A DNA stretch of 24,839 bases. It comes from a virus. This document shows positions 20,832-24,839 of this stretch, piece by piece. Each line of letters opens with the position of its first letter. Position 1 is the stretch's first letter. The notes below the pieces were generated by a model. That model was given only the letters and a program-made list of their open reading frames with translations, ran no database searches and was not told the origin of the DNA. Position numbers and translations under genes: made by a program. The DNA lies in the IMG/VR virus record IMGVR_UViG_3300027244_000018, positions 1 through 24,839 of that record; one strand, written 5' to 3'.

Positions 20832-21701
20832 TCAGATTCTATTTGCGAATTGGCTGAACGTGATAACATTTGCTGCAGCTCTGTGTCTTGCAGCTTGTTG
20901 TGCCATTTCCTGGTCTGGATCATTTGCAGAACCTTTTTCATATTCGCCTTCGCCCAGTGCTTCACCCTCACCCTGTTCAGGTTCAAATGGCTTAATCTGC
21001 TTTTGCTCTTGAATGAAGTCTTCAACACTCATAAGCTTCTTTCTTTTCTTAGCTTTACCAGGACCTGCTGGAACATCACCAGAACCTATTGCATCACCAT
21101 TTGGTAAGCTGACATCACCCATACCACCAAGCATTGCAGGTGTAACCGCAGATAGATTTTCATTCTTTAGTTCATGGTAGTTATCGTTCGCCTGCTTGAT
21201 ATAGTTGTATGACTGTGAGATATGGTCTTGAATCCAACCTGGTAAATCTTTTTCTTGTGTACCAATCTTTTCTTCTAGATCCATTGCGGCATTGATAATA
21301 GATTCTAATTGACCAAGTGCCATACCAACTTCATGGTCATTTGCCTCAACAATAATATCGTGTTTTACAAGTACTGCTGCAACTGCCGCTTTGATTTCTT
21401 CTCTTAATTCTGCCTTGATTTGTGGATCTCTACTAAAACCAAATTGCTTCATGATTTTATGCATGAGTGGATCGATAAGCATCTTTAGTGCTTCGTTTAC
21501 ATAAGATTCTTTTACCTCTTCCGGTAAATCTTCATGTGGTGTTGAAGCAAAATCCTTAAGGTCTTTAAGAGTCATACCGTTGACTAGTTCCTCAACTTTG
21601 TCTCTATATGCATTATCAACATCAGACAGTTGCATATCGCCGGATTTAACAGCATATGCAACACCCATTAGACGTTGTTGTGATTTACTAGTGCTTGGCA
21701 T
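20832..21701 (-). CDS. DUF3008-like protein, probable internal or structural head protein
   Basis: A 289-residue protein. Residues 1-62 (SKSQQRLMGVAYAVKSGDMQ, then LKDLKDFASTPHEDLPEEV) match the DUF3008 type found in many phages. YVNE/A at residues 68-71 looks like a T4 gp21 prohead-protease site (hydrophobic-x-E). The middle (75-180) is helical with DLPGWIQDHISQSYNYIKQA, a segment seen in phage head-associated proteins. The C-terminal part is low complexity: Gly/Pro-rich, then KKRKK, LMSVEDFIQEQ (leader-like) and an acidic EGEGEALGEGEYE stretch, ending ITFSQFANRI. ATG 21701 overlaps the preceding stop (TAATG). Together with its two upstream neighbours it suggests a head-internal protein cluster; function not established. 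Confidence 0.75.
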   Translation of the reverse strand: MPSTSKSQQRLMGVAYAVKSGDMQLSDVDNAYRDKVEELVNGMTLKDLKDFASTPHEDLPEEVKESYVNEALKMLIDPLMHKIMKQFGFSRDPQIKAELREEIKAAVAAVLVKHDIIVEANDHEVGMALGQLESIINAAMDLEEKIGTQEKDLPGWIQDHISQSYNYIKQANDNYHELKNENLSAVTPAMLGGMGDVSLPNGDAIGSGDVPAGPGKAKKRKKLMSVEDFIQEQKQIKPFEPEQGEGEALGEGEYEKGSANDPDQEMAQQAARHRAAANVITFSQFANRI

Positions 21702-22069
21702 TATAATTCAATCTTTAATAGTTTAACTACATCATTAAGTGTAGACTTATCATATTTGTAACCACGTACAGTCTTATCACCTAGTACTAAATCTGCATCA
21801 TCTGTATAAACTGAATCACCGGCCAATGGGGCAAGAACTGCACTGATGTGCATTGCTTTAGTTGGACCTGCAAAACCTCTTGGTAGCTTTGCACCATATT
21901 CATCTTGAATGGCTTCTCTATCGTTGATAGAAAGATATACCTCTTCACTGAATTTGTAATCACCGTCCTTTTGGATAAGTTTTCTAAGAGTGATTTCTGC
22001 TAAATTATTATCTAGTTCCAAATCTTTAGCTTCATTAATAAAAGCTTCAAATAGTTTAATATATTTCAT
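21701..22069 (-). CDS. Probable internal head protein with IP-type leader
   Basis: A 122-residue protein beginning MKYIKLFEAFINEAKD. T4 internal proteins IPI-III begin MKTYQEFIAEA and are cut by prohead protease gp21 after the Glu; here FINE/A fits the same rule (hydrophobic-x-Glu). The mature remainder (about 109 residues) is mixed alpha/beta with EEVYLSINDREAIQDEYGAK and a beta-like end (YKYDKSTLNDVVKLLKIEL). The leader recurs almost exactly inside the upstream giant protein (residues 526-540). Internal proteins are packed in the head and injected with DNA, often to protect it or act on the host. ATG 22069 has no Shine-Dalgarno. Role inferred from the leader only. Confidence 0.72.
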   Translation of the reverse strand: MKYIKLFEAFINEAKDLELDNNLAEITLRKLIQKDGDYKFSEEVYLSINDREAIQDEYGAKLPRGFAGPTKAMHISAVLAPLAGDSVYTDDADLVLGDKTVRGYKYDKSTLNDVVKLLKIEL

Positions 22070-22088
22070 AATTATTATTTTTGATTTA

Positions 22089-24839
22089 TTACCAGGCGTA
22101 ATCTAGATTAGAAATCTTAGATACTCTGTCTTTAACATCCTTGGCGTATACCGCAGCTTCTTTCTTATAATAAGAACCTGATTCTGGTTCTTTTTTTAAT
22201 TTATTTACATATTCAACATATCTTGAATATGAATCTAGGATATTTGCCATATGGTTTGATGCATCTCTCAGTTTAACTTCCTGACCCTTTGGAGAAGTAC
22301 CGATTAAAAGATCGCCGTATCTACCCATTTCCATTTTCTTAGTAGCTGTCTTGATTTGATCTGCAAGTTCATTAACTGCATTTTCAACCATACCATCAAT
22401 ATCATCATTCATGGCTCTAGTCTGAAGGATTTCTCTATATCTCTTAGTGTTTTCAGCTTTAAAATCTTTGTCAGACATAAATGCAGTTGCACCTGCTTTT
22501 GCAGCATTTCTTTCACGTCTCATATCTAATGTAGACGGTAGAATATCTGGGTTGAACATCAACACTCTATCAGCCACTTCAGCAATTCTCTTTACATTGT
22601 AAAGACCAGATGCCTCGTAACCAGAATATCTTTTATCAACGCCGATAGTATCACTAGCACTATTCGTAGATGACATATTAATATCTTGACCATTCTTAGA
22701 CCAATATCTTGAATAAGTTATACCTAAGAAATCATTTGAACCCGTTGCAACTGCAAGAAGTGTATTACCAGAAAGTTGTCTAACATATTTAGACGTGGCA
22801 TATGGATTATCCTTTGGATTGTCTAGGATATAGAAGTAGATACCTTTCACCTTACTTTTATATGCTTCCATTGGATGAAGCTCGACAATTTGATCATCCG
22901 TAATCTGATCAAGCTTTACTTTTGTATAATTGTAAAGCGCCTTCATTGTTCTAGAATTAAAACCAGAAAGATTAAGCAGTGATGCTAATTTAGAAGACTG
23001 GAATGCCTCTGTAACAAGACCTTCATTAAATGCATATCCATCAACCTCTAGTCTATCCCATTCGCTTTTTGGCATAATACCAACGCCATCTTTAGTGTGG
23101 AGTGCATTAGTTTTAAGCATGATTTCCATCATCTTTTCCGCTGACTTCATTGAAGTGTGTTCGCTATAGAAGTGCATTTTCATTGTGCCTTCTTTCCAGT
23201 AGCATACGTAAGTTTCTTTTGCCTCATTAATAAATGATTCAAATGATTCGTAAATAAATCTCATTGGTTTGTTTTCAATTTGTTTAGTTTCATTAACAGA
23301 TGCTTGTGGCTTTGCTGGTAATTGGGCTAGTGCTCTTTTACCAAACTTTGAAAGTGCAACACCATCTTCAGAAACATTAAAATACTGTGCATTTGCTTTC
23401 ATCCATCTTTTACCATCCGCTGAGAATTCAGAAAGAAGGGCGTCAAACTGTTCTTGTGTTAGTCTACCATCTGCAATAGCATCTAGCATTTTGTTTCTAA
23501 CAATTGCTGTCTTACCAGCTGTTTTTGCTGGATAATTTTCTGTGTATTTTCTCTTAAGAGTAATGTGGCGTTCGTTGAGTTCATCGTAAGATTCAACGAC
23601 TGATTCAATTGGGTTAAATGATTCACCAACTAATTCAGCATCAGCATCCTTAAGACCAACTGCATCGTTTAATTCAGCTTCCAGCTTTTTCTTTTGAGCA
23701 GTTAAATCTTTTAATTTAGCAAGTAAATCTTCTTTATCTTTACCTTCAGCTGCCTTCCACATATCTACTGTATCCTTCATATCGGCTGTTATTTTACCCC
23801 AATCCTTTTGAATTTTATTAATTGAACGAGCTTCATTCATATCTTCAGTTTGATATTCATTGTAAACCTGCTTGAATTCCTTAAGATTACTAACCGGTTC
23901 ATCGTACAATTCAACTGTTTCGTCTTCAACGTTAATGCGAATAGCTGAATCTTGATATTTAATATCTAAAATTAGTGTACCGTAGTCCTTTCCAATAGCT
24001 GTACCACCACTGATTCTCTTGCCTACCTTTTCAACCCAACCAGCTACAGTATTAACTAGAGAAGTAATACCTTTTCTTTTAGCAAAGTCTTTAATATTTG
24101 AAGGAACATATCCTTCGTTTACTGATTCGTTAGTTGGCTTCATTGGGTCAAATTGTTTGATGGTATTGTGTTTAGCATTTGTTGGAAAGTCCATTGCAGT
24201 TACGATGGTATCAGCCAATTTAGCCATCTCTCTTGCACCAGTTCTTGTGAATTCTAAATCAGTATCAGCTGCCTTAAACCAAACCCAAACTTTACCCTCT
24301 CTGATTGAGAATTGAACAATCCCTGGAATTTTATGGCCTTTGTAACCTGCAAATTTTACAGGCGCTGACCAACCACCCCAATTATCTGGAAGTTGGAACT
24401 CAACATTCATATTGAAATGAGCTTCATCCGAACCAAATACTTTAGTATCGTCATACATGAGTGAACCCTCGCCAGTAAATGTCATTAGCACTTGGTTGAT
24501 ATAACTCATAGAACTACCTCTATAAAGGGCTTTGGTTACATCGTTCATTGAACCTTTAACCTCAAATGATTTGCCGGCAAGTTCTTTAGCAATTTCTTTA
24601 CCAAATGACTGAAGTGCTTTCATTGCAAGAGAGTTACCCCTTGAATCACCTCTCTGAAGAGCGGCTTTAACAGTGTTCTTATACGTATCCCCAGATAGTT
24701 CATTGATTACATCTTCGTTTACCGATTCTCTCATTAGATCTCTAACCTCATCGTTGAATTGACCATCATTAGATTTGTGGATAACATATGTTTCTTTATC
24801 CTTATCAAGGACCTGCTTCATTTTCTTAGCAGATTCCAA
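22089..24839 (-). CDS. Giant multi-domain internal-protein-like polyprotein, N-terminus outside window
   Basis: At least 916 residues; the frame runs off the window edge, so the true start is not visible. Modules are separated by short motifs ending in Asn-Glu: SVNE (39-42), VINE (44-47), SVNE (239-242), DMNE (333-336), DELNE (419-423), SVNE (514-517), FINE (536-539), AFNE (603-606), all fitting the gp21 cleavage rule loosely. Residues 526-540 (MRFIYESFESFINEA) repeat the leader of the downstream protein and start with Met, as if a separate gene had been fused in frame. The segment 243-330 is alpha/beta (GTAIGKDYGTLILDIKYQDS), 340-400 is a coiled coil, and 607-916 is a long helical domain with FLGITYSRYWSKNG. 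No enzymatic motif recognised. It looks like a head-packaged polyprotein cut during maturation; this is inference. Confidence 0.75.
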   Translation of the reverse strand: MESAKKMKQVLDKDKETYVIHKSNDGQFNDEVRDLMRESVNEDVINELSGDTYKNTVKAALQRGDSRGNSLAMKALQSFGKEIAKELAGKSFEVKGSMNDVTKALYRGSSMSYINQVLMTFTGEGSLMYDDTKVFGSDEAHFNMNVEFQLPDNWGGWSAPVKFAGYKGHKIPGIVQFSIREGKVWVWFKAADTDLEFTRTGAREMAKLADTIVTAMDFPTNAKHNTIKQFDPMKPTNESVNEGYVPSNIKDFAKRKGITSLVNTVAGWVEKVGKRISGGTAIGKDYGTLILDIKYQDSAIRINVEDETVELYDEPVSNLKEFKQVYNEYQTEDMNEARSINKIQKDWGKITADMKDTVDMWKAAEGKDKEDLLAKLKDLTAQKKKLEAELNDAVGLKDADAELVGESFNPIESVVESYDELNERHITLKRKYTENYPAKTAGKTAIVRNKMLDAIADGRLTQEQFDALLSEFSADGKRWMKANAQYFNVSEDGVALSKFGKRALAQLPAKPQASVNETKQIENKPMRFIYESFESFINEAKETYVCYWKEGTMKMHFYSEHTSMKSAEKMMEIMLKTNALHTKDGVGIMPKSEWDRLEVDGYAFNEGLVTEAFQSSKLASLLNLSGFNSRTMKALYNYTKVKLDQITDDQIVELHPMEAYKSKVKGIYFYILDNPKDNPYATSKYVRQLSGNTLLAVATGSNDFLGITYSRYWSKNGQDINMSSTNSASDTIGVDKRYSGYEASGLYNVKRIAEVADRVLMFNPDILPSTLDMRRERNAAKAGATAFMSDKDFKAENTKRYREILQTRAMNDDIDGMVENAVNELADQIKTATKKMEMGRYGDLLIGTSPKGQEVKLRDASNHMANILDSYSRYVEYVNKLKKEPESGSYYKKEAAVYAKDVKDRVSKISNLDYAW

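Follow-up and report, generated by a model that had tools for sequence, protein, structure and literature searches.

The large minus-strand reading frame at the right end of the analysed stretch, a 24,839-base virus record with T4-type genes (the window), probably encodes part of a polyprotein that is packaged as cargo into the head of a T4-related phage and cut by the prohead protease, with the freed domains injected. As read from the sequences, the protein is a row of cassettes that are gained, lost and moved at short motifs, and one module occurs both as a free leader gene and as part of a polyprotein. The same reading yields a leader core common to the internal proteins IPII and IPIII of T4, and genes for gp21 and gp23 in relatives. 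Targeting, cleavage, packaging and injection of the chain we infer from its similarity to T4, in which, according to the available excerpts of the papers cited here and below, the leader drives packaging and is removed by gp21 (PMC9958956, PMC7411985), Alt is cut at ITE and LTE (PMC5694885), and Ip1-3 are injected inhibitors (PMC12373910).

The visible part of the gene, the 3' part of what we call polyprotein A, comprises 916 codons (22089-24839, minus strand) and is open at its 5' end at the right window edge, the TTG at 24839 being merely the first codon available; at the left edge the window cuts a gene for a T4-like portal protein (PF07230, E 2.7e-45). The first-pass annotation had asked for an extension past 24839 to find the true start, and this was supplied by a related, overlapping contig of 19,883 bases, L003. 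Its bases 1-2766 correspond to window 21363-24128 (99.86% match) and its bases 2751-2877 to window 24713-24839 (100% match). There the gene is complete (L002:7584-10151, 855 aa, ATG start), and window residue 1 equals residue 140 of the homologue, so that the start lies a further 139 residues away. At its N-terminus, MRKVLNIDEWYNSIEKASVEVHE, the L003 protein is degenerate and contains no clean leader. The window contig stops exactly 127 bases past its fork with L003 (24713-24839), a length that is presumably a common assembler k-mer; judged from the behaviour of assemblers, this end suggests that both cassette forms were present in one sample.

The two forms differ by a single cassette. L003 is nearly identical to the window yet lacks 200 residues exactly between two ESVNE motifs (window residues 38-237, or 43-242, which is equivalent). 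Near-identical 16-base repeats, GAATC[G/A]GTAAACGAAG, code for the two motifs: copy 1, GAATCGGTAAACGAAG, lies at 24713-24728 and copy 2, GAATCAGTAAACGAAG, at 24113-24128, both on the minus strand. All motifs that the first-pass annotation had named as separators of modules were found, namely SVNE ending at residues 42, 242 and 517, DMNE at 336, ELNE at 423, FINE at 539 and AFNE at 606, and they delimit the following minus-strand cassettes. Residues 1-42 (24714-24839) form the C-terminal end of module M2, which ends in ESVNE and is present as a whole 76-aa module in L003. M3 (residues 43-242, 24114-24713) is the cassette precisely missing from L003, and no relative of it was found in viral_contigs. 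M4 (residues 243-336, 23832-24113), whose start is the L003 cassette breakpoint, ends in DMNE and showed no homologue besides L003 among the ORFs compared. The helical M5 (residues 337-423, 23571-23831) ends in ELNE and has homologues in a second type of chain, polyprotein B, while M6 (residues 424-517, 23289-23570), ending in ASVNE, directly follows the N-terminal leader in L019, L116, L140, L158 and L190. An embedded leader, MRFIYESFESFINE (residues 526-539, 23223-23264), is preceded by an A-rich stretch and followed by M7 (residues 540-606, 23022-23222), which ends in AFNE and again showed no homologue besides L003 among the ORFs compared. The C-terminal module (residues 612-916, 22089-23006) exists as a free-standing protein with its own leader in L009, as two paralogues, and in L131.

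A proposed likeness of residues 2-13 to residues 564-576 turned out not to be significant, since M2 and M7, the modules containing these stretches, fail p<0.03 against shuffles, and the second copy of module 540-606 that was thought to extend past the edge is likewise unsupported, M2 of L003 failing the same threshold against M7. Among 36 module pairs compared, the sole match was M5 with an L009 cassette (p=0.008), as expected by chance.

The motifs are more frequent than the composition of the protein predicts. Asn-Glu dipeptides occur 11 times (4.2 expected, p=0.002) and [ILVMFA]-Asn-Glu 9 times (1.39 expected; p=2e-4, the lowest value that 5000 shuffles allow). Taking every hydrophobic-x-Glu as a site was rejected, as this loose rule shows no enrichment in the window protein (22 vs 17.3 expected, p=0.12). 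The Asn-Glu at residue 824 was also discarded as a site or boundary because it lies inside a high-confidence predicted helix and the relatives that align at this point do not retain its Glu. DMNE falls within a predicted helix as well, in a model that is weak overall (pLDDT 52.8).

Gain and loss of cassettes were surveyed in the window/L003 pair and in the four relatives in which polyproteins A and B can be aligned (L005, L014, L017, L018); more distant relatives, 13 loci, were retrieved with the C-terminal module as query. The survey gave 37 indels of at least 25 residues. Eight were dropped because their flanks are not alike; by eye, these are mostly non-homologous cassettes substituting for each other. 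The other 29 reduce to 15 events under our key; a visual count gives some 11 distinct cassettes. Of the 15 events, 9 have the strict motif [ILVM][NTSDYA]E close to both of their ends and all have it close to at least one, whereas in 5000 trials of random placement the number with it at both ends averaged 1.12 of 15 and never exceeded 7 (p=2e-4). Cassettes also move between chains: M5 is part of polyprotein A in the window and of polyprotein B in L005, L014, L017 and L018 (58-60% identity), and a small repeat module sits in A of L019 and in B of other relatives. A YNDQF cassette is tandemly duplicated within the L116 polyprotein. The claim that distinct modules are separated by Asn-Glu-type motifs is thus borne out by cassette gain and loss at these points, and this large phage protein is a beads-on-a-string array of swappable small domains, joined by putative head-protease sites.

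The same exchanges could be read without any proteolysis, the motifs being recombination linkers in a multidomain chain that is never cut, so that the motif would recur because the DNA repeat is a recombination site and the Asn-Glu ends would be a by-product. T4 recombines at short homologies (excerpt of PMC9391042), and cassette exchange at short repeats fits recombination of this type. An identical 18-base junction, GAATCAGTAGTTAATGAA, recurs in L014.A (257 and 335), L014.B (683) and L018.B (589 and 779). Moreover, the junction Glu is no better conserved than other Glu, neither in close pairs (51/53 vs 711/788, p=0.22) nor in distant pairs (9/21 vs 147/323). Against this, the junctions vary in both DNA and residues (ESVVNE, ESTITE, ESLNE, VSEA) and keep hydrophobic-x-Glu throughout, and the motif also ends free N-terminal leaders with the T4 core, where there is no cassette junction. 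We therefore consider uncut linkers unlikely and retain cleavage at the junctions as the preferred reading.

The leader itself is found in free and embedded form. Next to polyprotein A lies the gene of a free-standing leader protein of 122 aa (21701-22069, minus strand), which starts MKYIKLFEAFINEA and whose leader, MKYIKLFEAFINE, is encoded at 22031-22069; as had been noticed before, residues 526-539 of the window protein start with Met and resemble this leader. A leader regex picks 15 of 173 ORFs in record G003 and 25 of 316 in record G005, compared with means of 0.3 and 0.5 for shuffled N-termini. Around the putative cut, 38 of these 40 leaders have I, L or V at P3, 25 have N at P2, and 30 have A, K or S at P1'.

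The module behind the window's embedded leader forms part of a free 338-residue protein in L131, MNKIHTTFESFVNESLEVNEAFKSS... (53% identity over 327 columns), and L009 has the module as two free leader proteins. The L174 polyprotein, 651 residues long, terminates in ...QENINNTI-MKHVKLFEAFVNE-KAYRMTGPY..., where an entire leader gene is joined on in frame. The earlier proposal that a free-standing leader protein was fused into the chain in frame is upheld by these two cases, the free C-terminal module with its leader and the fused gene in L174. Such sharing is not confined to them: among the matches listed, for 21 of 309 unique leader ORFs shorter than 380 residues, half or more of the body recurs within one of 25 polyprotein-like ORFs (one phage is counted twice, L136 being L005; the window and L003 fall below that regex and are left out). 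Four of these 21 ORFs extend beyond the edge of their locus (L013, L150, L177, L181) and L135 is, on inspection, a two-cassette protein, which leaves 16 single leader proteins with four bodies: the C-terminal module (3), a KAYRMT type (9), a GTRxQFGK type (3) and a YNDQF type (1).

The 24 bases before the embedded-leader ATGs have an A fraction of 0.54 to 0.71 in seven cases, compared with an average of 0.41 (s.d. 0.10) upstream of 224 in-frame internal ATGs, the embedded ones included, and 0.53 upstream of 40 free leader genes. The A-rich stretch, which looks like a former intergenic spacer, precedes the ATG at 23264 (minus strand) in the window and those in L005, L009, L014, L017, L018 and L019. 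It fits a fusion scar, and judged from these letters an internal translation start at the embedded ATG is possible. Three further arrangements were observed around leaders. The DUF3008 protein of the window (20832-21701) has a counterpart in L005 (L005:12058-13197) with an added C-terminal cassette after an embedded, leader-like FKSFEEFISEA. In the 462-kb uncultured phage LR756500, two leader genes (L069:30972-31730 and 48758-49531) have bodies that, by our reading of the letters, resemble leucine-rich repeats. The leader protein L042:9149-10432 looks ligase-like, again by our reading; in Microcystis phage Mel-JY01 (PP395634 11243-13162) it forms one fused protein with a cytidylyltransferase-like domain.

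The leaders resemble those of T4. IPII and IPIII of T4 begin with MKTYQEFIAE-A and IPI with MKTFKEFTSTTTPVSTITE-A, the hyphens marking what we take to be the cut positions. T4 gp23 contains FLTE-A, its cut being placed on the basis of the 65-residue propeptide described in the excerpts of PMC9958956 and PMC5694885. The shared leader core, [FY]-x-[EQDASN]-[FY]-[ILVT]-x-E located near the start, is matched by 2 of the 76 T4 ORFs, ipII and ipIII only; IPI misses the short core. It is found in 1 of 29 ORFs in the window, 5 of 21 in L003, 6 of 34 in the G002 stretches, 8 of 173 in G003 and 26 of 316 in G005, as well as in 6 of 152 in part of LR756500, and it stands at the N-terminus of the neighbour (21701-22069) and of the L005 homologue of polyprotein A. 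The nearest cultured capsid relatives are the Tenacibaculum phages PTm1 and PTm5, a kinship that hints at a Bacteroidota host; PTm1 shows no clear leaders (core pattern in 1 of 320 ORFs), and neither does Mel-JY01 within its first 33 kb (1 of 35 in the part scanned), a phage that shares a neighbour gene.

Of 10 relative records, 6 contain a T4-type prohead protease (gp21, PF03420) scoring above the cut-off, and these 6 also carry gp23 (PF07068). In G003 and G009 the protease is encoded between the portal and capsid genes, as a fusion with a region of repeated [IL]AE motifs. The window, L003 and L005 records, all short fragments, contain no prohead protease gene. The gp21 and gp23 genes of relatives and the T4-like leader core support the assignment, made from sequence, of the window polyprotein to phages with a T4-type head-protease system. 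At L035:5308-7368 and L037:7386-9308 the [IL]AE-repeat region fused to the protease is long and scaffold-like, and the annotation of PTm1 shows the same kind of fusion. A second short PF03420 match (G005:C1:36115-36369, a 132 aa frame) is present in addition to the gp21 gene in the three 234-236 kb records.

Alternatively, the polyproteins could be scaffold-like proteins of the prohead core, whose leader and motifs act in core assembly and whose chain the protease breaks down into peptides that are lost from the head, in the manner of T4 gp22, gp67 and gp68; T4 core proteins bear multiple gp21 sites and get degraded (excerpts of PMC9958956 and PMC5694885), and polyprotein B has a helical-looking N-terminal region common to relatives and many charged repeats. 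Yet a scaffold-like region is already fused to gp21 next to the capsid gene. Polyproteins A and B do not lie beside portal, protease and capsid, where the genes of a T4-type core would be; they adjoin helicase, ligase-like and cytidylyltransferase-like genes instead, and the block beside the capsid gene holds other proteins. In addition, their cassettes vary between close relatives and also occur as free leader genes, unlike a structural core. Hence a role as degraded core is rather unlikely, and packaged cargo remains the favoured role.

A leader precedes a homologue of the anti-CBASS protein Acb1 (L051:16674-17237; 31.2 bits, cut-off 27) and one of the anti-Thoeris protein Tad3 (77.5 bits, cut-off 27). 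The Tad3 ORFs (L171:4615-5370, L193-L195) bear the leader on all three records that have Tad3, out of 47 searched. Since these homologues carry the packaging leader, the inhibitors may be delivered with the DNA. Other leader proteins with known relatives are a Zeta-toxin/AAA kinase, a GNAT and ATP-grasp proteins. Among 80 representatives, the longest of 90 clusters from 216 complete strict-leader proteins among the matches listed, 9 Pfam families were found with one member each, and most had no match; as the contigs came from a scan with a leader pattern (at least 120 stretches), such counts show variety and not enrichment. PADLOC returned nothing strong. Effector cargo is made likely by the Acb1, Tad3 and kinase homologues under the same leader, as judged by sequence similarity, and the window's own cassettes may also have an anti-defence role. 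That most leader proteins are without assigned function leaves room for the view that the leader is no capsid-targeting signal and guides proteins to some other site or complex within infected cells. This is very unlikely, as the leader core has the residues and spacing of the T4 capsid-targeting sequence, with its selective hits in T4, and a small gene in the interval between portal and protease also bears the leader (L035:4913-5251).

Neither the window protein (P0001) nor five polyproteins of relatives (L116, L174, L134, L190, L089) has a convincing Pfam match, no peptidase domain was found in any of them, and PHROGs gave only chance-level matches to P0001. A search of 50,697 phage records returned no match for the window protein, both L005 polyproteins, a free C-terminal protein, a free leader protein or a repeat module. 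The second polyprotein of L003 (L003:7806-9539) matches 97 phage records, among the matches listed through its C-terminal cassette only (aa 458-567); these are hypothetical proteins, mostly of cyanophages and Streptococcus phages. Of the domain-by-domain structure and profile searches proposed earlier, those with the C-terminal module gave a model (pLDDT 73.2, pTM 0.49) that had no PDB or BFVD match with E up to 0.001, and a profile of the module gave one chance-level match against PDB sequences. The weak full-length model noted above does not permit domain borders to be set.

Taken with the T4 precedents, the N-terminal and embedded leaders, as equivalents of the T4 capsid-targeting sequence, would draw the chain into the prohead core, where the prohead protease would cut after the Glu of [V/I/L]-[N/T]-Glu junctions; the freed domains, of about 60-300 residues, would pass into the host along with the DNA. 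Many leader proteins that stand alone would do likewise one at a time, some of them, such as the Acb1 and Tad3 homologues, in anti-defence.

Like IPI, IPII, IPIII and Alt of T4, these proteins have a short N-terminal leader, with a core ending in x-Glu that is shared with IPII and IPIII; many unrelated bodies stand behind one leader, relatives encode a gp21-type protease, and anti-defence homologues occur in the cargo. Unlike in the T4 internal proteins, leaders are also embedded within multi-cassette chains, and leader genes number 15 (G003) to 25 (G005) per record, compared with three IPs and Alt in T4 (excerpt of PMC7411985). The polyvalent proteins of phages and conjugative elements are multidomain and are predicted to be packaged and injected and to offer several counter-defences at once (excerpt of PMC5512222). 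The present chain is alike in its several distinct domains, as evidenced by cassette gain, loss and movement, and in being a predicted packaged and injected protein that would offer several counter-defences. Polyvalent proteins are released by embedded peptidase domains (same excerpt), whereas the sites here fit a separate head protease; P0001 and the five polyproteins of relatives showed no known polyvalent domain or embedded peptidase in the Pfam scans, and the cassettes are small and mostly without known relatives. The ejection proteins of the giant phages SPN3US and phiKZ, inner head proteins whose propeptides are cut after x-Glu by the prohead protease, resemble what is predicted here, but their propeptides often exceed 100 residues, the motif in SPN3US is A-X-E, and the excerpt of PMC5694885 does not describe a cassette chain. 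We file the polyprotein within the T4 internal-protein kind, as a protein that would work like a polyvalent one while lacking the known polyvalent domains. Its parts are known, namely the T4 capsid-targeting sequence, the prohead protease and, from PMC5512222, polyvalent proteins; a literature search, with subscription papers and bioRxiv largely outside it, returned no description of a polyprotein chain with embedded leaders that a prohead protease cuts.

As a tentative extension, the chain may be a counter-defence cassette array at the protein level. The DNA repeat that encodes the protease site would double as a recombination point, and we propose that any cassette inserted there would automatically be packaged, freed and injected. 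Free leader genes would be absorbed by in-frame fusion, while their internal ATG may still start translation, and cassette turnover in a population, of the kind that separates the window from L003, would adapt the set of injected proteins to the defences of local hosts.

If the packaging and cleavage model is true, a phage head protease is able to act as a polyprotein-processing enzyme for injected effectors, and phages have a natural way to load several proteins into one head as a chain. The leader would then be a sequence tag for finding many injected anti-defence proteins in uncultured phages. As it is already present on homologues of the inhibitors Acb1 and Tad3, the neighbouring uncharacterised leader proteins and cassettes are direct candidate inhibitors.
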